This document shows positions 2,106 through 42,116 of a stretch of DNA of 64,000 bases, in pieces. This stretch comes from Micromonospora chokoriensis. Lineage in GTDB: Bacteria; Actinomycetota; Actinomycetes; Mycobacteriales; Micromonosporaceae. The notes under the pieces are model-generated. The model did not search any database and was not told where the DNA came from. It saw only the letters and a list, made by a program, of their open reading frames with translations. Location of the stretch: NCBI RefSeq assembly GCF_900091505.1, contig NZ_LT607409.1, positions 5,022,001-5,086,000 of the forward strand. The letters run 5' to 3'. Position 1 is the first letter of the stretch; each line of letters begins with the position of its first letter. Made by a program: the position numbers and the translations under genes.

Positions 2106-2717
2106 GTGTGGTGGCGGCGGACCCTGCCGGCGGCGGTCGCCCTGCTCGCCGTGAGTGGGCTGGGGCTGATCACGGTCGGCCTCACCGCCGACCCGGCGAC
2201 GCCACCACGACCGCCCGCCGACGCGCCACGACGCACCGAGCCGGCACCGGACCTGGTGCCGCTCCCGCGCGCCGCGCCGGTCCTGGTGCAGATCACCGCC
2301 ATCGGTGTACGCGCGGAGGTCGTCCCCGTCGGCGCCGACGCGGCCGGGGTGCTGCAAGTGCCGCCACTGGACCGGCCCACCCTCGCCGGCTGGTACCGGC
2401 ACGGGGTGAGCCCCGGCGAGACGGGCAACGCCGTCCTGGTCGGACACGTCGACTCACCGGCCGGCCCGGCGGTCTTCTTCGACCTCGGACGGCTGCGCGC
2501 CGGCGAGCAGATCCAGGTCACCCGCGCCGACACGCGGGTCGTCACGTTCACAGTGGACGACGTACGGGCGTACCCCAAGGAGCACTTCCCGACCACGCTC
2601 GTCTACGGCCCGGCGGACGCCGCCGCGCTGCGCCTGATCACCTGCGGCGGCCGGTTCGACGCCACGACCGGCAACTACGTCGACAACGTCGTCGTCTTCG
2701 CCACCCGCACCTCCTGA
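2106..2717 (+). CDS. class F-like sortase
   Basis: A 203-residue membrane-anchored transpeptidase. It has an N-terminal helix (residues 8-28), a proline-rich stalk, then the sortase fold with VLVGHVDS carrying the likely catalytic His114 and LRLITCGG carrying the likely catalytic Cys180; Arg183 is a candidate for the third residue. The CGG-x-FD pattern and the ..DNVVVFA end are those of actinobacterial class F sortases, which sit alone or with one substrate rather than in pilus clusters. GTG start with GGAGG seven bases upstream. The preceding surface protein is the obvious candidate substrate, but the pairing is inferred from position only. Confidence 0.9.
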   Translation: MWWRRTLPAAVALLAVSGLGLITVGLTADPATPPRPPADAPRRTEPAPDLVPLPRAAPVLVQITAIGVRAEVVPVGADAAGVLQVPPLDRPTLAGWYRHGVSPGETGNAVLVGHVDSPAGPAVFFDLGRLRAGEQIQVTRADTRVVTFTVDDVRAYPKEHFPTTLVYGPADAAALRLITCGGRFDATTGNYVDNVVVFATRTS

Positions 2718-34817: not shown

Positions 34818-34965
34818 GTCGTGCCCTTTCGTGTGAGCTGATCGAGGGGTGCCGAAATCATCTGACCGTAGCGGTTGGACGGTGCTTCGCAGAGGGGCTG
34901 CCTGGTCTCTGGGACCAACCGTTTCGGCAGGCTGCGCAGCGTGGCGACGGGTCTACCCTCAGGTG

Positions 34966-35646
34966 ATGGAGGGCCGCGTGCTGGTGGTCGAGGACGACGC
35001 CTCCATCCGGGAGGTCACCGTCCTCGGGCTGCGCCGCGCCGGCTTCCGGGTCGAGGGCGCCGTCGACGGACGACACGCCCTGGCGGCCTGGCGGGCCCGT
35101 CCCGTCGACCTGATCGTGCTCGACATCATGCTGCCCGTTCTGGACGGCCTGGAGGTCTGCCGGGAGATCCGGCGGACCAGTCAGGTGCCGATCCTCATGC
35201 TGACCGCGCGCACCGACACCATCGACGTGGTGGTCGGGTTGGAGTGCGGCGCCGACGACTACCTCCGTAAGCCCTTCGACCTGCCCGAACTGGTGGCCCG
35301 GGTCCGGTCGGTGCTACGTCGGGTGAGCGCGCCGGTCCCGTCGACGCTCATCGAGGTCGGCGACCTGGAGATCGACCCCGGTGGCTTCGTGGTCCGCCGG
35401 CGCGGCCGGGAGGTGCCGCTGACCACCACCGAGTTCCGCCTGTTGCTGGAGCTGGCCCGTCGACCCGGCCAGGTCTTCACCCGGGATCTGCTGCTGCACC
35501 TGGTCTGGAACCACGACTTCCTGGGCGACTCCCGGCTCGTCGACGTGGCAGTGCAACGGCTACGCGCCAAGGTCGAGCAGGACCCGGCCCGGCCACGGCT
35601 GATCCAGACCGTGCGCGGCGCCGGCTACAAGTTGTCGACGGGCTGA
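34966..35646 (+). CDS. OmpR/PhoB-family response regulator (CseB-like)
   Basis: A 226-residue regulator: receiver domain (RVLVVEDDASIREVTVLGLRRAGF, phospho-Asp in LIVLDIMLPVLDG, LMLTARTDTIDVVVGLECGADDY, KPF) and a C-terminal winged helix (DLEIDPGGFVVRRRGREVPLT, RLVDVAVQRLRAKVEQDP, QTVRGAGYKL). The receiver resembles CseB, which governs envelope stress in streptomycetes. It heads a three-gene operon with the kinase (14-base gap) and a GerMN lipoprotein. The ATG at 34966 has only a weak AGG upstream; the GTG at 34978 is possible. Confidence 0.9.
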   Translation: MEGRVLVVEDDASIREVTVLGLRRAGFRVEGAVDGRHALAAWRARPVDLIVLDIMLPVLDGLEVCREIRRTSQVPILMLTARTDTIDVVVGLECGADDYLRKPFDLPELVARVRSVLRRVSAPVPSTLIEVGDLEIDPGGFVVRRRGREVPLTTTEFRLLLELARRPGQVFTRDLLLHLVWNHDFLGDSRLVDVAVQRLRAKVEQDPARPRLIQTVRGAGYKLSTG

Positions 35647-35660
35647 CGGGAGGGACGGCG

Positions 35661-37043
35661 ATGGCCGGACGCGCGGTGCCCCCGGGCCGCCTGCGACGCC
35701 GGCTGACCGTCGCGTTCATCCTGGTCGCTGGGGTCTCGGCCGGGCTGCTCGCCGGCGGGACCGGGCTGTTGCTGCGGCAGTCCTGGTGGGACGCGTCGCT
35801 GCGGGAGGCCGCCGCCGACGCCCGCTACCAACTCGTCCTGGCCGGGCAGTTCCTCCCCCTGACCGACCAGCGCAGCGCCGACCTGCTCACCAGCTTCGAG
35901 GCCAGCGGCCGGCACGTCGTGCTCGTCGACGGCCCGGCCCGCGCCTCGCACCCCGCGTACGCCCCGGAGCTGGGCACCGGGTTGCGGGCCGCGGTCGCGG
36001 GCGGGCAGCTCGGCTACCAGCGCTCCGCCCCGGCGGTGCGCCCCCGGCTGCTCGTCGTCGGTGGGCGCATCCCGGGCTCGACCGCCGAGTTGTACGTCCT
36101 CACCGTGGAGGACGACGTCGCCACCGACCTGGGTCAACTGCGTACCGCCCTGGTGGCGGGCTGGGTGCTCGTGGTGCTGCTCGCCGCCGGGATCGGTCAC
36201 ACGTTGGCGCGGCGCACGTTGGAGCCGGTGGGCCGGGCCAGCCGGGCGGCCCGAGCGCTCACCGAGGGCCTGCTCGCCACCCGCCTGCCGGTACGCGGGC
36301 GCGACGAGTTCAGCGTCTGGGCGGCGACGTTCAACGAGATGGCCGAGGCGCTGGAGTCGAAGATCGGGGCACTGTCGGCCGCGCAGGCCCGCGAGCGGCG
36401 GTTCACCGCCGACGTCGCGCACGAGCTGCGTACCCCGGTGACCTCGTTGGTGGCCGCGGCGTCGCTGCTGCGTGAGCACCTCGACCGGTTGCCCGACGAC
36501 GCCCGGCCAGCCGCGCGGCTGTTGGTCGACGACGTGGTCCGGCTTCGCCGGCTGGTCGAGGACCTGATGGAGATCTCCCGACTGGACGCCGGCCGGGAGC
36601 AGCTGGAGGTCGGGCCGGTCGACGTGTCGGCGCTGCTGCACGGGATCGTCGCCGCGCGCGGCTGGTCGGACCGGGTGCTGGTCGGCGGGGAGGCCGGCAC
36701 ACTGCGCACCGACCGGCGTCGGCTGGAACGGGTGCTGGCCAACCTGGTCGCCAACGCCGTCGAGCACGGCGGCGGGGAGATCCGGGCCATCGCCGTCCGG
36801 GCGGGCCCGCTGGTCGTCTTCGAGGTCACCGACCAGGGGCCGGGCATCCCGGCGGAGCACCTGTCCCTGGTGTTCGACCGTTTCCACCAGGTCGACAGGT
36901 CCCGCTCGGCGCCGGGCAGCGGGCTCGGGTTGGCCATCGCGCGGGAGCACGCCGCGCTGCTCGGTGGGGTGTTGACCGTCCGCAGTGGGCCTGGGTCCGG
37001 TGCCTGTTTCCGGCTGGAGCTGCCGGCGGACGGTGCGACGTGA
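35661..37043 (+). CDS. HAMP-containing sensor histidine kinase (CseC-like)
   Basis: A 460-residue membrane kinase: first helix at residues 15-35 (VAFILVAGVSAGLLAGGTGLLL), an extracytoplasmic sensor of about 115 residues, second helix near 157-178 (VAGWVLVVLLAAGIGHTL), HAMP (to 235), HisKA with DVAHELRTPVTSLV (His254) and HATPase_c with ANLVANAVEHGGG, TDQGPGIP and GSGLGLAIAREHA. GGGAGGGAC precedes the ATG. The last base pairs overlap the GerMN lipoprotein start by four bases, so sensor and lipoprotein are made together. Confidence 0.93.
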   Translation: MAGRAVPPGRLRRRLTVAFILVAGVSAGLLAGGTGLLLRQSWWDASLREAAADARYQLVLAGQFLPLTDQRSADLLTSFEASGRHVVLVDGPARASHPAYAPELGTGLRAAVAGGQLGYQRSAPAVRPRLLVVGGRIPGSTAELYVLTVEDDVATDLGQLRTALVAGWVLVVLLAAGIGHTLARRTLEPVGRASRAARALTEGLLATRLPVRGRDEFSVWAATFNEMAEALESKIGALSAAQARERRFTADVAHELRTPVTSLVAAASLLREHLDRLPDDARPAARLLVDDVVRLRRLVEDLMEISRLDAGREQLEVGPVDVSALLHGIVAARGWSDRVLVGGEAGTLRTDRRRLERVLANLVANAVEHGGGEIRAIAVRAGPLVVFEVTDQGPGIPAEHLSLVFDRFHQVDRSRSAPGSGLGLAIAREHAALLGGVLTVRSGPGSGACFRLELPADGAT

Positions 37044-37930
37044 ACCGGCGCGGTGTCGCCGGGGCGACGCTCGTCGCCGTACTGCTCGTCGGCGGGTGTG
37101 GCAGCCCGCGCTCGGGAGCGCTCGGCCCGGCGCCCACGGCAGCGCCGTCCGGCACCGCCCCGGTGGTCGTCACGCCGTCCGGCGCCTCCGAGCGCCCCGA
37201 GCCGATCCCACCGACGGCGACACCGAGGTCGTCCTCGACCAGCCCGTCGTCGCCGACGAGCGGTCCCGCCGGGGGCACCGTGACAGTGGAGTTGTGGTTC
37301 GTCCGCGCCGGGCAGCTCGTGCCGACCAGGCGGTCCCGGCCAGCCACCGTGGCCACGTCCCGGCTGGCGCTGACCGAGCTGGCCCGGGGTCCGACACCGG
37401 CCGAGGCCGCCGGCGGGCTGCGCACCCTCGTCCCGGCCGACGTCGAGGTCACCCGGATCACCGACGGCACGGCGATCCTGCGCGCCCCGTCCGGTGACAG
37501 TGCGACGCGGCGACTCCGCGAGGCCCAGGTGGTGTGGACACTCACCCAGTTCCCCACCGTGCGCCGGGTCCGCCTGAACGGGGCGGCCCCGGTCGAGCGG
37601 GCGGACTACGCGGAGCTGCTGCCGCCGATCGTGGTCACCGGGCCGACCGCCGGCGAACGCGTCACCACGCCACTCGTCGTCACCGGGACCGCCGACGTGT
37701 TCGAGGCCACGGTGAGCGTCCGGGTGTTGGACTCCGCCGGCCGGGAGGTGGCCACCGGCTTCGGCACGGCCAGCTGCGGCGGCGGCTGTCGGGGCGGCTA
37801 CCGGGTGCTGGTCGGCTGGCGCACGACCCGGGAGCAGAAGGGCACGATCGAGGTGTACGAGGTGTCCGCGCACGACGGCTCACGGATCAACACGACGAGT
37901 GTGCCGGTGCTCCTCGCACCGGGCGGTTGA
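37040..37930 (+). CDS. GerMN/Gmad2-domain lipoprotein coupled to the two-component system
   Basis: A 296-residue exported lipoprotein with lipobox LLVGGCG (Cys about residue 20), a Pro/Ser/Thr-rich spacer, a GerMN domain (residues 80-185: VTVELWFVRAGQLVPT, LALTELARGPTPAEAAGGL, REAQVVWTLTQFPTVRRVRLN) and a Gmad2 Ig-like domain (residues 195-290: PPIVVTGPTAGERVTTPLVVTG..GWRTTREQKGTIEVYEVS). Its GTG overlaps the kinase stop. LpqB and CseA are lipoproteins that tune partner kinases, so a similar restraining or sensing role is inferred. Confidence 0.88.
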   Translation: MNRRGVAGATLVAVLLVGGCGSPRSGALGPAPTAAPSGTAPVVVTPSGASERPEPIPPTATPRSSSTSPSSPTSGPAGGTVTVELWFVRAGQLVPTRRSRPATVATSRLALTELARGPTPAEAAGGLRTLVPADVEVTRITDGTAILRAPSGDSATRRLREAQVVWTLTQFPTVRRVRLNGAAPVERADYAELLPPIVVTGPTAGERVTTPLVVTGTADVFEATVSVRVLDSAGREVATGFGTASCGGGCRGGYRVLVGWRTTREQKGTIEVYEVSAHDGSRINTTSVPVLLAPGG

Positions 37931-38302
37931 CCGCCCTCACCGAGACGGGTGTTAACCCGATGCGTCATCCGTTTATCGACAACGACGTGCGGTGCTGACG
38001 TCTACCCGACAGCACCCGGTCCTCGTGCCCACCGCCTGGGCTGAGCCGACCGCGCCGCGAAACCGCAGGTCACGGCTGCGGGAACGGCTCCGACACGCCG
38101 GTAGCGGGTGGGCGCGTCGGGCCGGGTCAGACGGGCGTTCACCCGACGTCCGAGATTGACCGGGACAGTTCTGTTTGCGAACGTGAGCGCGCCGTTGCAC
38201 ACAGTCACATTCGCTGTTCAGCGTCGTGATGGCCGGGCAGTTCCACCGTCGTACCGGTCACCGCGACAGTGTTCGTCATCCCTCACAGAGCGGAGATCCA
38301 TC

Positions 38303-38485
38303 ATGTCCGGTGGCAGCCTTCCCCGTACCGGTATGGGCGTTGTCACGATCGGCGGCGCGGCCGGTATCGGCAGCTACGCCCTCCCCCTGCCGCTGACCAT
38401 CGCGATCACCGGGGCGACCGCCGTCGTCGTCGGTTTCCTGATGATCCGGATGACGTTCCGGCGTAAGCAGTCGGTCGGCCAGTGA
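38303..38485 (+). CDS. 60-residue membrane microprotein with LPRTG motif
   Basis: This short protein has LPRTG at residues 6-10, followed by about 38 mostly hydrophobic residues (VVTIGGAAGIGSYALPLPL; TIAITGATAVVVGFLMIRM) and a basic tail (RRKQ). That is the plan of a sortase sorting signal with almost no exported domain in front. GGAG lies eight bases before the ATG. Its stop overlaps the glycosyltransferase start by four bases (GTGA), so the two are coupled. It may be a membrane partner of the synthase rather than a real sortase substrate. The 37931-38302 gap before it shows no other gene. Confidence 0.75.
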   Translation: MSGGSLPRTGMGVVTIGGAAGIGSYALPLPLTIAITGATAVVVGFLMIRMTFRRKQSVGQ

Positions 38486-39828
38486 CCGCGAGCGTCACCA
38501 GGGGTCGTGTCCTGTTCGCCGCGGCGGTCGTCCTGGCCGCCGCGGCGGCGTGGACCGCCCGTCACGTCCTCGCCGTGATCGGCGCCCTCGACGGAGGCGG
38601 CCACCGCTTCACCTTCGCGTACGCCGCCATGTTCCTGCTGCTGATCTGGCAGCTCGGCTCCTCCTACCTGGAGAAGCCGGCCGTGGTCACCGACCGGATG
38701 CAGGGGCACCTCGACGCTCTGCACGTGGTGGGCATCGTGCCGGCGTACAACGAGGATCCGGCCGCGCTGCGCGCCTGCCTCGAATCCATGATCTTCCAGA
38801 CCCGCAGACCGGACACCATCTACGTGGTGGACGACGGGTCGAAGCTGACCGAGGGGTACCAGCCGATCAAGCGGTGGTTCCTCGACGTCGCTCCCGTGCA
38901 CGGCATCATCGCCGCCTGGCACATCCAGCCCAATGCCGGGAAACGGCACGCCCAGGCCGCCGCCGTGCGGTCGACCCCGGCAGCCGACGTCTACTGGACG
39001 GTGGACTCGGACACCATCTCGGACCCGAACGCCCTCCGGGAGTTGTTGAAGCCCTTCGCCGATCCGGCGGTGCAGTCCGTCGCGGGGGTGGTGATGGCAG
39101 CGAACGTCCGCAGCAGCTTCCTCACCCGGTTCACCGACCTGTGGCTGGTGACCGGGCAGCTCACCGACAGGTCGTCGCTGTCGGTGTTCGGGTGCGTGTG
39201 GGTGAACTCGGGCCCGATCGCCGCCTACCGGGCGGAGGTCGTTCGCGACAACCTCGGGGCGTACCTGACGGAGACGTTCTTCGGCCGGCGGGTGCCCTTC
39301 TCCGACGACTCCCTGCTCACCCTCTTCGCGATGGTGCGGGGTCGTACCGTGCAGCAGCCGTCGGCGTTCGCGTTCTCCCTCATGCCGGAGAACGCCGGGC
39401 ACTTCTGCCGGATGTTCCTCCGCTGGATGCGCGGCAGCTTCATCAGAACCTGGTGGCGGGTCCGGTACCTGTCGTTGCTCTCCATCGCGTGGTGGCTGCA
39501 CCTGCTGCGCTGGGCGGCGACGGTGGTGGCGACCGTGCTGTTCGTGGCGGTGGCGATCCTGTCGCCGATCATCGACCCCGACCCGCGGGCGATTCCGTGG
39601 CTGGTGGCCGTGCCGTTGATCGTCGGGTACGGGCAGGCGCTGCGCTACATGACGGTCCGGCGCTCGGACCAGTCGACGGCCTACCAGTGGGGCACCTGGC
39701 TCCTCACGCCGGTCGCGGTGGTGTTCGCCCTGGTCGTGCTCAGGGCGATCCGCTGGTACGGCATCGCCACCTGCTGGCGCACCGGCTGGGGCACCCGCAC
39801 GAAGGTGGAAGTGGCGCTCAGCTCCTGA
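38482..39828 (+). CDS. family 2 processive glycosyltransferase, hyaluronan/chitin-synthase-like
   Basis: A 448-residue membrane synthase. Two N-terminal helices (VLFAAAVVLAAAAAWTARHVL; AAMFLLLIWQLGS) precede the GT-A domain with VPAYNEDP, VVDDGS, the sugar-nucleotide DSDT, the acceptor FSDDSLLT and RWMRGSF in place of QxxRW; four further helices follow (residues 325-430). This resembles NodC/HasA-type enzymes that polymerise and export a beta-linked polysaccharide from UDP-sugars. The product cannot be told from sequence. Coupled to the upstream LPRTG microprotein; a hairpin follows. Confidence 0.88.
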   Translation: MTASVTRGRVLFAAAVVLAAAAAWTARHVLAVIGALDGGGHRFTFAYAAMFLLLIWQLGSSYLEKPAVVTDRMQGHLDALHVVGIVPAYNEDPAALRACLESMIFQTRRPDTIYVVDDGSKLTEGYQPIKRWFLDVAPVHGIIAAWHIQPNAGKRHAQAAAVRSTPAADVYWTVDSDTISDPNALRELLKPFADPAVQSVAGVVMAANVRSSFLTRFTDLWLVTGQLTDRSSLSVFGCVWVNSGPIAAYRAEVVRDNLGAYLTETFFGRRVPFSDDSLLTLFAMVRGRTVQQPSAFAFSLMPENAGHFCRMFLRWMRGSFIRTWWRVRYLSLLSIAWWLHLLRWAATVVATVLFVAVAILSPIIDPDPRAIPWLVAVPLIVGYGQALRYMTVRRSDQSTAYQWGTWLLTPVAVVFALVVLRAIRWYGIATCWRTGWGTRTKVEVALSS

Positions 39829-39868: not shown

Positions 39869-39958
39869 GCCGGTGCGATGCACCTCACGAAAGCCTGCAC
39901 CTCCGGGCGACCGCGAACTAGTGTCAGTACGACATCGTTTCGCGGGGGGTCTACGGGG

Positions 39959-40588
39959 ATGCTGGGTGGTCAGCAGGTGGGCACGAGCGCCGGGGTACCG
40001 GCGGCTCGTGTTCCGCGTTGCACCGACACCGACCTGTTCGCCGTGGTCATCGCCCTGCTGCGCGAGGTCGGCTACGACCGGCTGACGATCGACGCCGTCG
40101 CCGCTCGCGCCCACGTCAGCAAGGCCACCATCTACCGCCGCTGGGACGGCAAGGCCGAACTGGTCGTCGCCGCCCTGCGCGACCGGCAGGTAGGTGTGCA
40201 CAACCCGCCCGACACCGGCTCGCTGCGCGGCGACCTGATCGAGCTGCTGCGGGCCACCGTCGCGATCTGCGCGGCCGACTGCGACCTCATGCAGGCGTTG
40301 ACCTTCGCCATGCGGACCAACCCCGAGCTGGAACGTCTGGTGCGCCACCAGGTGCTACCGGCCGGGCGGGTGGCCAGCACCGCCATCCTGGTCCGCGCCG
40401 CCGCCCGGGGGGAGATCCCGCCGGAGGCCGGCGAACGGGAGTTGTTCCACGATCTGGCGCCCGCGCTCACCATGTCCCGCATCGTCGCGCACGGCCTACC
40501 CGCCGACGACGCGTTCCTCACCCAGGTCGTCGACCAGGTGCTGATCCCGGTACTCCGCTACCAGCACGACCGCCCGTCCCAGGCCTGA
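39959..40588 (+). CDS. TetR-family repressor
   Basis: A 209-residue regulator with the TetR helix-turn-helix (FAVVIALLREVGYDRLTIDAVAARAHVSKATIYRRWDGKAEL, residues 25-68) and a TetR_C-type ligand domain (LIELLRATVAICAADCDLMQALTFAMRTNPEL). It lies 34 bases before an MFS drug exporter on the same strand, so it most likely represses its own operon and responds to an exported compound. The ATG at 39959 has GGGG upstream. Confidence 0.92.
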   Translation: MLGGQQVGTSAGVPAARVPRCTDTDLFAVVIALLREVGYDRLTIDAVAARAHVSKATIYRRWDGKAELVVAALRDRQVGVHNPPDTGSLRGDLIELLRATVAICAADCDLMQALTFAMRTNPELERLVRHQVLPAGRVASTAILVRAAARGEIPPEAGERELFHDLAPALTMSRIVAHGLPADDAFLTQVVDQVLIPVLRYQHDRPSQA

Positions 40589-40622
40589 CTCACCGACATC
40601 TCGTAACACGGAAGGCTTCACC

Positions 40623-42116
40623 ATGTCCGGAACCACCTCGACCGCCCCCGGCGCGCCCGGCGCCGGGACGTCGACAGGCGCGCCGCACCCGCGGCGCTGG
40701 ATCGCGTTGGCGGTCATCGCGGTCTCGCAGCTGATGGTCGTCCTGGACGCCACCATCGTGAACATCGCGCTGCCGAAGGCCCAGGCCGACCTGGGCATCA
40801 GCGACGCGAACCGGCAGTGGGTCGTCACCGCCTACACGCTGGCGTTCGGCGGTCTGCTGCTGCTCGGCGGCCGGATCGCCGACTACTGGGGGCGCAAGCG
40901 CACCTTCCTGGTCGGTATGACCGGTTTCGCGCTCGCCTCTGCGCTGGGCGGCCTCGCCACCACGGGCGGCATGCTCTTCGCGGCCCGCGCACTGCAGGGC
41001 GCGTTCGGCGCACTGCTCGCCCCGGCCGCGCTGGCACTGCTCACCGTCCTCTTCACCGAGGCCACCGAGCGGGCCAAGGCCTTCGCGGTGTACGGCGCGA
41101 TCGCCGGCGGTGGGTCGGCGGTCGGTCTGCTGCTCGGCGGGGTGCTCACCGAGTACGCCGACTGGCGCTGGTGCCTGCTGGTCAACATCCCGGTCGCCGC
41201 CATCGCCATCGCCTTCGCGATCCCGCTGGTGCCGGAGAGCCGGGCGCACGGCAACACCCGCTACGACGTACCCGGCGCGATCGTGGTCACCGCCGGCCTG
41301 GTCTCCCTGGTCTACGGCTTCACCAAGGCCGCCGAGGACGGCTGGGACGCCACCGCGACGCTCGCCTTCATCGCCGCGGGCGTGGCGCTGCTCGCCGCCT
41401 TCGTGGTCATCGAGATGCGCTCCAGCCACCCGCTGCTGCCGCTGCGCATCATCCTGGACCGCAACCGGGGCGGGGCGTTCCTCACCTCGACGCTGATCGG
41501 CGCCGGCCTGTTCGGGGCGTTCCTCTTCCTGACCTTCTACTTCCAGGTGGTGCTGCAGTACAAGCCCCTGGAGGCCGGTCTGGCGTCGCTGCCGGTCACC
41601 GCCGGTGTGCTGATCGCCGCCGGTGGCGCGAGCCAGCTGATGCCCCGACTGGGTGCCAAGCCCCTGATGGTCGCCGGCTCGGCGCTCGCCGCCGTGGGCA
41701 TGCTGGTGCTGACCCAGATCGACGTGGACACGTCGTTCCTCACCCACCTGCTGCCCGCCCAGGTCATCCTGGGTCTGGGGCTGGGCTTCACCTTCGTCCC
41801 GCTGTCCAGCCTGGCCCTGGTCGGGGTGCCGGAGCACGACGCCGGCGCGGCCAGCGCGACGCTCAACGCCACCCAGCAGATCGGTGGTTCGCTGGGTACC
41901 GCGCTGCTGAACACCCTCTACACCAGCGCGGTCGCCACCTACCTCGTCGGTCGGGCACCGAGCCCGGTCAACCAGGTCGAGGCGCTGGTGCAGGGCTACA
42001 GCGTGGCGTTCGCCTGGGGCGCGGTGCTGATCGTGCTCGCCGGTCTGGCCACGGTGTTCCTGGTGAAGGTGCGCAAGGAGGACATCCCGACCGGCACCGC
42101 TGTGCACATGGGCTGA
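40623..42116 (+). CDS. DHA2-family (EmrB/QacA) 14-helix efflux transporter
   Basis: A 497-residue MFS exporter with about 14 helices: helix 1 IALAVIAVSQLMVVLDATIVNIALP (motif D1), motif A LLLGGRIADYWGRKRTF, motif C AIAGGGSAVGLLLGG. These are hallmarks of proton-driven multidrug efflux. It forms an operon with the upstream TetR. A long GC hairpin follows the stop. Confidence 0.95.
   Translation: MSGTTSTAPGAPGAGTSTGAPHPRRWIALAVIAVSQLMVVLDATIVNIALPKAQADLGISDANRQWVVTAYTLAFGGLLLLGGRIADYWGRKRTFLVGMTGFALASALGGLATTGGMLFAARALQGAFGALLAPAALALLTVLFTEATERAKAFAVYGAIAGGGSAVGLLLGGVLTEYADWRWCLLVNIPVAAIAIAFAIPLVPESRAHGNTRYDVPGAIVVTAGLVSLVYGFTKAAEDGWDATATLAFIAAGVALLAAFVVIEMRSSHPLLPLRIILDRNRGGAFLTSTLIGAGLFGAFLFLTFYFQVVLQYKPLEAGLASLPVTAGVLIAAGGASQLMPRLGAKPLMVAGSALAAVGMLVLTQIDVDTSFLTHLLPAQVILGLGLGFTFVPLSSLALVGVPEHDAGAASATLNATQQIGGSLGTALLNTLYTSAVATYLVGRAPSPVNQVEALVQGYSVAFAWGAVLIVLAGLATVFLVKVRKEDIPTGTAVHMG

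Follow-up and report, generated by a model that had tools for sequence, protein, structure and literature searches.

The gene for a hyaluronan-type synthase in Micromonospora chokoriensis overlaps at its start the gene for a 60-residue protein that is nearly a pure sorting signal, and on balance we lean towards the reading that this microprotein is a sortase-processed membrane partner of the synthase. The recurrence of the pair in distant actinobacteria suggests, as far as can be read from sequence, a link of surface polysaccharide synthesis to the wall-attachment machinery, and the conservation of a synthase together with a near-pure sorting signal makes such a sortase link testable, in Streptomyces as well as in Micromonospora. 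In what follows, ‘the window’ is the whole stretch of 64,000 nucleotides that was analysed.

The microprotein and its overlapping synthase gene

Table 1. Features of the microprotein–synthase pair, in positions of the window
Feature	Position	Strand	Basis or remark
Probable Shine-Dalgarno sequence (GGAG) of the microprotein gene	38292-38295	+	separated from the ATG by 7 bases
Gene of the microprotein (60 aa), a sortase-type signal standing alone	38303-38485	+	ATG at 38303, stop TGA at 38483-38485
LPRTG codons, residues 6-10	38318-38332	+	in the N-terminus, modelled with low confidence
Predicted long helix (residues 29-54), presumably the membrane helix	38387-38464	+	AlphaFold2
GTGA overlap, 4 bases, microprotein stop and synthase start	38482-38485	+	sequence
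GT2, hyaluronan-synthase-like, 448 aa, GTG start	38482-39828	+	Pfam, profile and fold matches
W-G-T-R codons, residues 436-439	39787-39798	+	WGTR of the Chlorella virus hyaluronan synthase aligns here

The first-pass annotation had described an LPRTG-bearing frame of 60 residues that shares four bases with the gene of a hyaluronan-synthase-like glycosyltransferase. The coordinates, the GTGA and the location of the motif confirm the former part of this description (Table 1), while profile matches, the alignment of WGTR and fold matches bear out the latter. Translational coupling of the two genes via the overlap is likely, and an ATGA or GTGA overlap is likewise present in L002-L006 and L008-L010. 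Sequence comparison reveals that the GGAG in front of the microprotein’s ATG is kept in three Micromonospora relatives; an internal ATG in the frame would yield a 50-residue form devoid of LPRTG, and no GGAG-like site precedes it. By a crude count, pS is 0.12-0.16 and pN 0.03-0.05 when the frame is compared with those of the three Micromonospora relatives, and the corresponding values for L003 versus L004 are 0.34 and 0.08. In comparisons of L003 or L004 with L005 pN is no lower than pS (0.32 and 0.30), so that constraint on the frame is, by this count, visible at close range only.

The AlphaFold2 model of the microprotein has a mean pLDDT of 67.5, with values of 84 for residues 31-40 and 93 for residues 41-50; a short helix (residues 11-19) precedes the long one, at the end of which lies the basic tail RMTFRRK. 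According to the positive-inside rule this tail would be located inside, which would place LPRTG outside the membrane. The window copy thus exhibits the L[PA]xTG pentapeptide followed by a hydrophobic helix and a basic tail, as sortase substrates do. Its motif is preceded by five residues, without an N-terminal signal peptide and without an exported domain, 38 residues separate the G of the motif from the first basic residue as compared with 22-24 in ten anchors of the host, and the protein gave no match to the curated LPXTG models TIGR01167 and PF00746.

For the synthase, Pfam yields Glycos_transf_2, and the solved chains matched best by a profile of 11 synthase sequences are hyaluronan synthases (CvHAS, 3.2e-27; HAS1, 6.7e-22). 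Its model (mean pLDDT 82.6) exhibits two helices before the GT domain and combines a single GT2 domain and membrane helices with a fold of the hyaluronan synthase type: the first 13 Foldseek matches are hyaluronan synthases, with CvHAS and XlHAS1 as the best, and cellulose synthase comes next. Within the WGTR motif, W436, T438 and R439 are invariant in synthase alignment A2. The window synthase is hence akin to class I hyaluronan synthases (CvHAS, Xenopus HAS1) with respect to (i) the GT2 domain, (ii) the flanking membrane helices, (iii) WGTR, and (iv) the best sequence and fold matches. It differs from them in that the fold matches share 17-20% identity, and the likeness is one of sequence and model. 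Moreover, the viral hyaluronan synthase is described as active as a monomer (PMC10939387, accessible in part), whereas the window synthase is paired with a microprotein. Assignment to NodC was rejected (TIGR04242; 144.4 bits versus a curated cut-off of 550), as was PgaC membership by the respective cut-offs. The synthase is 97-98% identical in M. alfalfae, M. trifolii and Micromonospora sp. H61.

A gene for a UDP-glucose/GDP-mannose dehydrogenase is located beside the synthase gene in L072, L083, L092, L219, L194 and L195 (two Streptomyces plasmids among these), and ∼1 kb downstream of it in L073 and L074. This location beside the synthase fits a glucuronate-containing product. Among the neighbours listed for the 32 loci that were clustered, the dehydrogenase is the sole family common to more than three loci of different genera; the search of L199-L228 covered sortase and dehydrogenase genes. 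The host encodes two NDP-sugar dehydrogenases that score over the cut-off, both elsewhere in the genome. The dehydrogenase and synthase genes of L083 overlap.

Spread of the pair and placement of the motif

The distribution of the synthase is patchy. At thresholds of 1e-60 to 1e-50 it was found in 11 of the 200 genomes searched in the family, in 17 of 394 in the class and in 5 of 396 in the phylum (two of the five being already known from the narrower searches), and in further families in 18 of 120, 32 of 239 and 5 of 22 genomes (all of the last five already known). We counted 82 loci, that is, synthase places with a locus given, each taken once; four new places without locus in the family with 32 of 239 genomes lie outside this count. 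Upstream of the synthase, 41 loci encode a microprotein with L[PA]xTG, one encodes a microprotein with LLRTG (L005, a fairly close relative of the window copy), and 13 encode a one-helix microprotein with a basic tail and without the motif (L009, L010, L048, L063, L097, L099, L103-L106, L110-L112). In the remaining 27, no partner was recognised upstream or the contig ends (L055, L056, L058-L060, L094, L107-L109, L113-L115, L176, L180-L193). Partners were recognised by hydrophobicity and basic tail rather than by the motif, with several first noticed by eye or motif: those of L054 and L063 were found by eye, and that of L096 by motif scan only. Weak hydrophobic frames upstream of L108 and L115 were excluded.

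The conserved microprotein–GT2 pairs for which the first-pass annotation had proposed to look do recur across Actinomycetota. The motif-bearing pair occurs in Micromonosporaceae (f1), in five other families of the class (f7, f11, f19, f21, f22), and in two genomes of other classes (L095, L096). The annotation had further named loss of the motif in paired homologues as grounds for giving up its interpretation. Such loss is not what is found, L[PA]xTG being kept in 41 of the 55 partnered loci, and retention is incomplete, given the 13 loci without motif and the single LLRTG. In a tree of 53 rows, motif-bearing partners are present on both sides of the deepest fork; the tree is midpoint-rooted, so that ‘ancestral’ is a reading of it, it was built before L166-L193 were added, and it labels L096 as ‘none’, its partner having been found later. 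Eight of the 27 partnerless loci fall into one clade that also holds the motif-bearing L057, and 14 more match this clade best. Hyaluronan-synthase-like glycosyltransferases without visible microprotein are encoded in L083 and in L180-L193, the latter placed by best match only. The partnerless synthases of L094 and L060 carry an extra N-terminal segment (LGEILV..GLAT), considered as a fused regulatory domain, which gave no Pfam match at 0.01 and which is reminiscent of T2SSE_N/MshEN.

When the microprotein profile (A1) was run by itself against 394 genomes, it retrieved 24 of them at E ≤0.001, own genome included, with many other matches lying in long open frames; the two matches looked at further, L028 and L029, adjoin independently found synthases. 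Enrichment of the motif is pronounced. L[PA]xTG is present in 33 of 46 microproteins, as compared with 0.58 expected by shuffling, and in 23 of 35 non-redundant ones, as compared with 0.36; without L096, which was found by its motif, the counts are 32 of 45 and 22 of 34. Each of thirteen control patterns of similar construction is found 0-3 times in the 46 microproteins, a set that omits nine near-duplicates (L004, L006, L010, L012, L013, L014, L169, L172, L174). The x position is occupied by R, Q, V, I, A, L, T, M, K or H, and by Y in Pseudonocardia; that the second position is only A or P follows from the definition of the pattern, with LLRTG noted as one near miss. Plasmid loci carry the motif in six of seven cases (LAQTG twice, LAYTG three times, LATTG), the seventh being that of Actinomyces oris.

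The motif is preceded by 4-21 residues in the microprotein family, and the predicted outer peptide comprises 8-25 residues in the members measured and 9 in the window copy. Members of the MPYGS clade have lost the N-terminal site, and all 10 that were read carry LAATG or LAITG ∼7 residues further on. Three of the five MPYGS members scanned pass LPXTG_anchor (TIGR01167, cut-off 15.9 bits) with 16.4, 16.2 and 20.6 bits, and a fourth reaches 15.7. Finally, a six-frame scan of 714,968 bases of loci for small frames that combine L[AP]xTG with a hydrophobic stretch and a basic tail yielded 25 directly upstream of a synthase and four elsewhere, its filter having missed two known upstream cases (L051, L054). 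Three of the four are C-termini of a family of 400-435-residue proteins and the remaining one is the L096 microprotein, whose synthase has a long N-terminus; with L096 counted as upstream, 26 frames lie upstream and three elsewhere.

Sortases and the readings of the pair

The host genome (6.9 Mb) contains seven places with a sortase domain (PF04203). Its strongest match has a long proline-rich N-terminus and is taken here as a putative class E sortase solely by its likeness in length to a class E sortase of Actinoplanes, which has 792 residues (PMC13251363, accessible in part). Another scanned host sortase fits class F best, below the cut-off. The host’s own anchors carry LPVTG, LPKTG, LPRTG and LPITG. 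In the window, a sortase-domain protein of 203 residues is encoded at 2106-2714 (+), 36 kb from the pair, and appears class F-like by a 39% match to the host sortase that fits class F best.

Among 69 sequences (1.17 Mb) searched with four sortases, only two lineages have a sortase gene close to the synthase: three Pseudonocardia plasmids, where it is annotated as class E and is divergent, its start lying 256 bases before that of the microprotein, and G871, where it is convergent and lies 3 bases after the synthase gene. As a rough estimate, at the host’s density of roughly one sortase gene per Mb, some 0.1 sortase would be expected by chance within 1.5 kb on either side of ∼45 loci. The Pseudonocardia plasmids with the divergent class E sortase gene (L196, L229, L230; source Apterostigma dentigerum) are typed as mobilizable.

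In the accessible part of the study on Streptomyces coelicolor (PMC5148588), SrtE1 is reported to cleave both LA and LP peptides in vitro and to prefer Ala to Pro 2-fold, and the authors stress the specificity of class E for LAXTG and not LPXTG; Actinoplanes SrtE, from the host’s family, ‘seems to’ take LPVTG (PMC13251363, again in part). To the extent that these sources can be drawn upon, both LP and LA are thus conceivable for class E enzymes. Comparison of the LA or LP type of the microprotein with that of the host anchors in 11 genomes with matches, a weak comparison based on the best two or three anchors per genome, revealed agreement in six, a mixed picture in two and disagreement in three (G076, G397, G488); G207 gave no match in this comparison.

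Counting for the microprotein as a sortase-processed partner are (i) the conservation of the pair, (ii) the enrichment of the motif, (iii) the kinship of the synthase, (iv) the presence of sortases in the genome, (v) a sortase gene directly beside the pair in two lineages, and (vi) the three MPYGS members that pass LPXTG_anchor. Counting against it are (i) the 13 loci without motif and LLRTG in L005, (ii) the spacing of 38 residues and the lack of a match of the window copy to the LPXTG models, (iii) the five residues before the motif, which leave little to anchor, (iv) the proximity of a sortase gene in two lineages only, (v) the LA/LP mismatch with the host anchors in three of 11 genomes, and (vi) the absence of the motif from the A. 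oris fusion described below. Taken together, processing of the microprotein by a sortase appears probable to us.

The mechanism that we propose is as follows. The class I hyaluronan-type synthase would polymerise and extrude a glycan that probably contains glucuronic acid, while the dedicated single-pass microprotein would reside beside it in a complex, with its N-terminus outside and its basic tail inside. A sortase of the cell, most likely of class E and sometimes encoded next door, would cut L[PA]xT|G and pass the short outer peptide to a peptidoglycan precursor, which would tie the exit side of the synthase, or the emerging product, to the growing wall. The step that we consider doubtful is that the glycan as such becomes covalently tethered. 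How hyaluronan-type synthases retain their product on the Gram-positive surface is, to our knowledge, not well explained, and we would tentatively entertain a sortase-coupled actinobacterial capsule system, in which a separately encoded sorting-signal peptide would let sortase attach either the nascent glycan or the active synthase to peptidoglycan. If this were true, a polysaccharide would be fixed to the wall by neither the lipid-carrier nor the LCP-ligase route. If the microprotein is a substrate, sortase substrates need no exported domain, and such proteins could escape surveys that set out from secreted ones.

The main rival reading is that the microprotein serves as a structural or regulatory membrane subunit by virtue of its helix and basic tail, with L[PA]xTG remaining uncut or cutting merely limiting the lifetime of the subunit. 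Small membrane subunits are known for other polysaccharide synthases, the genes overlap, and helix and tail are present without the motif in 13 loci; their presence in all 55 partners is no test, since they are what partners were recognised by. On the plasmid of Actinomyces oris WVU627 (L197:4623-6173), moreover, the N-terminus of the annotated synthase is a motif-less helix with a basic stretch, resembling the motif-less microproteins and fused by a linker to the synthase helices. The two helices before the GT domain would place the tail of this fusion inside and its free N-terminus outside, and the fusion fits a physical partnership of microprotein and synthase. It agrees with the sortase-processed partner and with the membrane subunit alike, and therefore leaves the odds between them unchanged. 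Sortases, however, read just such a pattern, in which x is free and the second position is confined to P or A, and helix packing would hardly account for it; furthermore, the motif is located at two places in the family and is yet kept, and sortase genes adjoin the pair. A subunit in place of a sortase substrate thus seems to us rather unlikely. The first-pass annotation had listed a membrane subunit among its options, and the 13 motif-less helices among 55 as well as the A. oris fusion lend that option some weight, in addition to or instead of anchoring; as a whole, its interpretation is partly supported. The A. oris synthase gene is located downstream of a gene for a polysaccharide deacetylase.

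Less probable still is that the outer peptide itself carries the polysaccharide and is then fixed by sortase to peptidoglycan. Such a peptide anchor would explain why the protein is so minimal, the genes for a sorting signal and a glycan synthase overlap, and a Tyr within residues 2-6, present in 19 of 35 non-redundant microproteins, might provide the attachment residue. No Tyr precedes the motif in L001-L006, however, and the N-terminal Tyr as a glycosylation site was accordingly left as an idea. The GT domain would be expected on the opposite side of the membrane, there are lineages without the motif, and UDP-GlcNAc is the initial acceptor inferred for streptococcal synthases in the accessible part of PMC10939387, all of which argues against a peptide anchor. 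A chance frame, or a translational leader with an unimportant product, is conceivable for a frame so short and overlapping the synthase start, and is nonetheless extremely improbable in view of the phylum-wide family alignment, pN well below pS at close range, the enrichment over shuffling, and the placement of 26 frames upstream versus three elsewhere, on which grounds it was rejected.

Relation to known systems and gene surroundings

Returning to the microprotein as a sortase-processed partner, it shares the pentapeptide (LA or LP), the hydrophobic stretch and the basic tail with known LPXTG/LAXTG substrates such as, for class E, the chaplins ChpA-C and SspA, CwpA and CwpB of Actinoplanes. 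The seven Actinoplanes candidates besides SspA comprise 219-762 residues (PMC13251363), which contrasts with the few residues before the motif in the microproteins. NF058583 (LAXTG_small_WW, ‘LAXTG motif-containing small protein’, 54 positions) matches 8 of 24 A3 rows weakly, with 3.4e-7 as the best value; all relatives remain under its cut-off of 65 bits (best 29.8) and the window protein does not match, the comparison being one of sequence models. The nearest published idea that we met is the PEP-CTERM/EpsH (exosortase) system, for which the accessible part of PMC1569441 likewise describes a sorting signal correlated with exopolysaccharide genes. That system differs in that it belongs to outer-membrane bacteria and relies on another enzyme and another motif, and its substrates generally possess signal peptides and are mostly encoded in single-gene operons. 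We found no published account of the microprotein–synthase pair in the literature on sortases, hyaluronan synthases and small proteins, a search covering subscription journals only to a small extent.

Among the neighbours listed and aside from clusters of close relatives, an MFS transporter recurs between L079 and the window group, and another shared cluster has three members. Upstream of the pair in the window (34849-37930, +) are genes for a response regulator, a histidine kinase and a spore germination-type protein that carries Germane and Gmad2 domains; among the neighbours listed, this trio is also located upstream in L012 and L014, and the Germane/Gmad2 protein in L013. Directly downstream of the synthase (39878-42116, +), a TetR-type regulator is followed by an MFS transporter, an arrangement that is kept in L012-L014.
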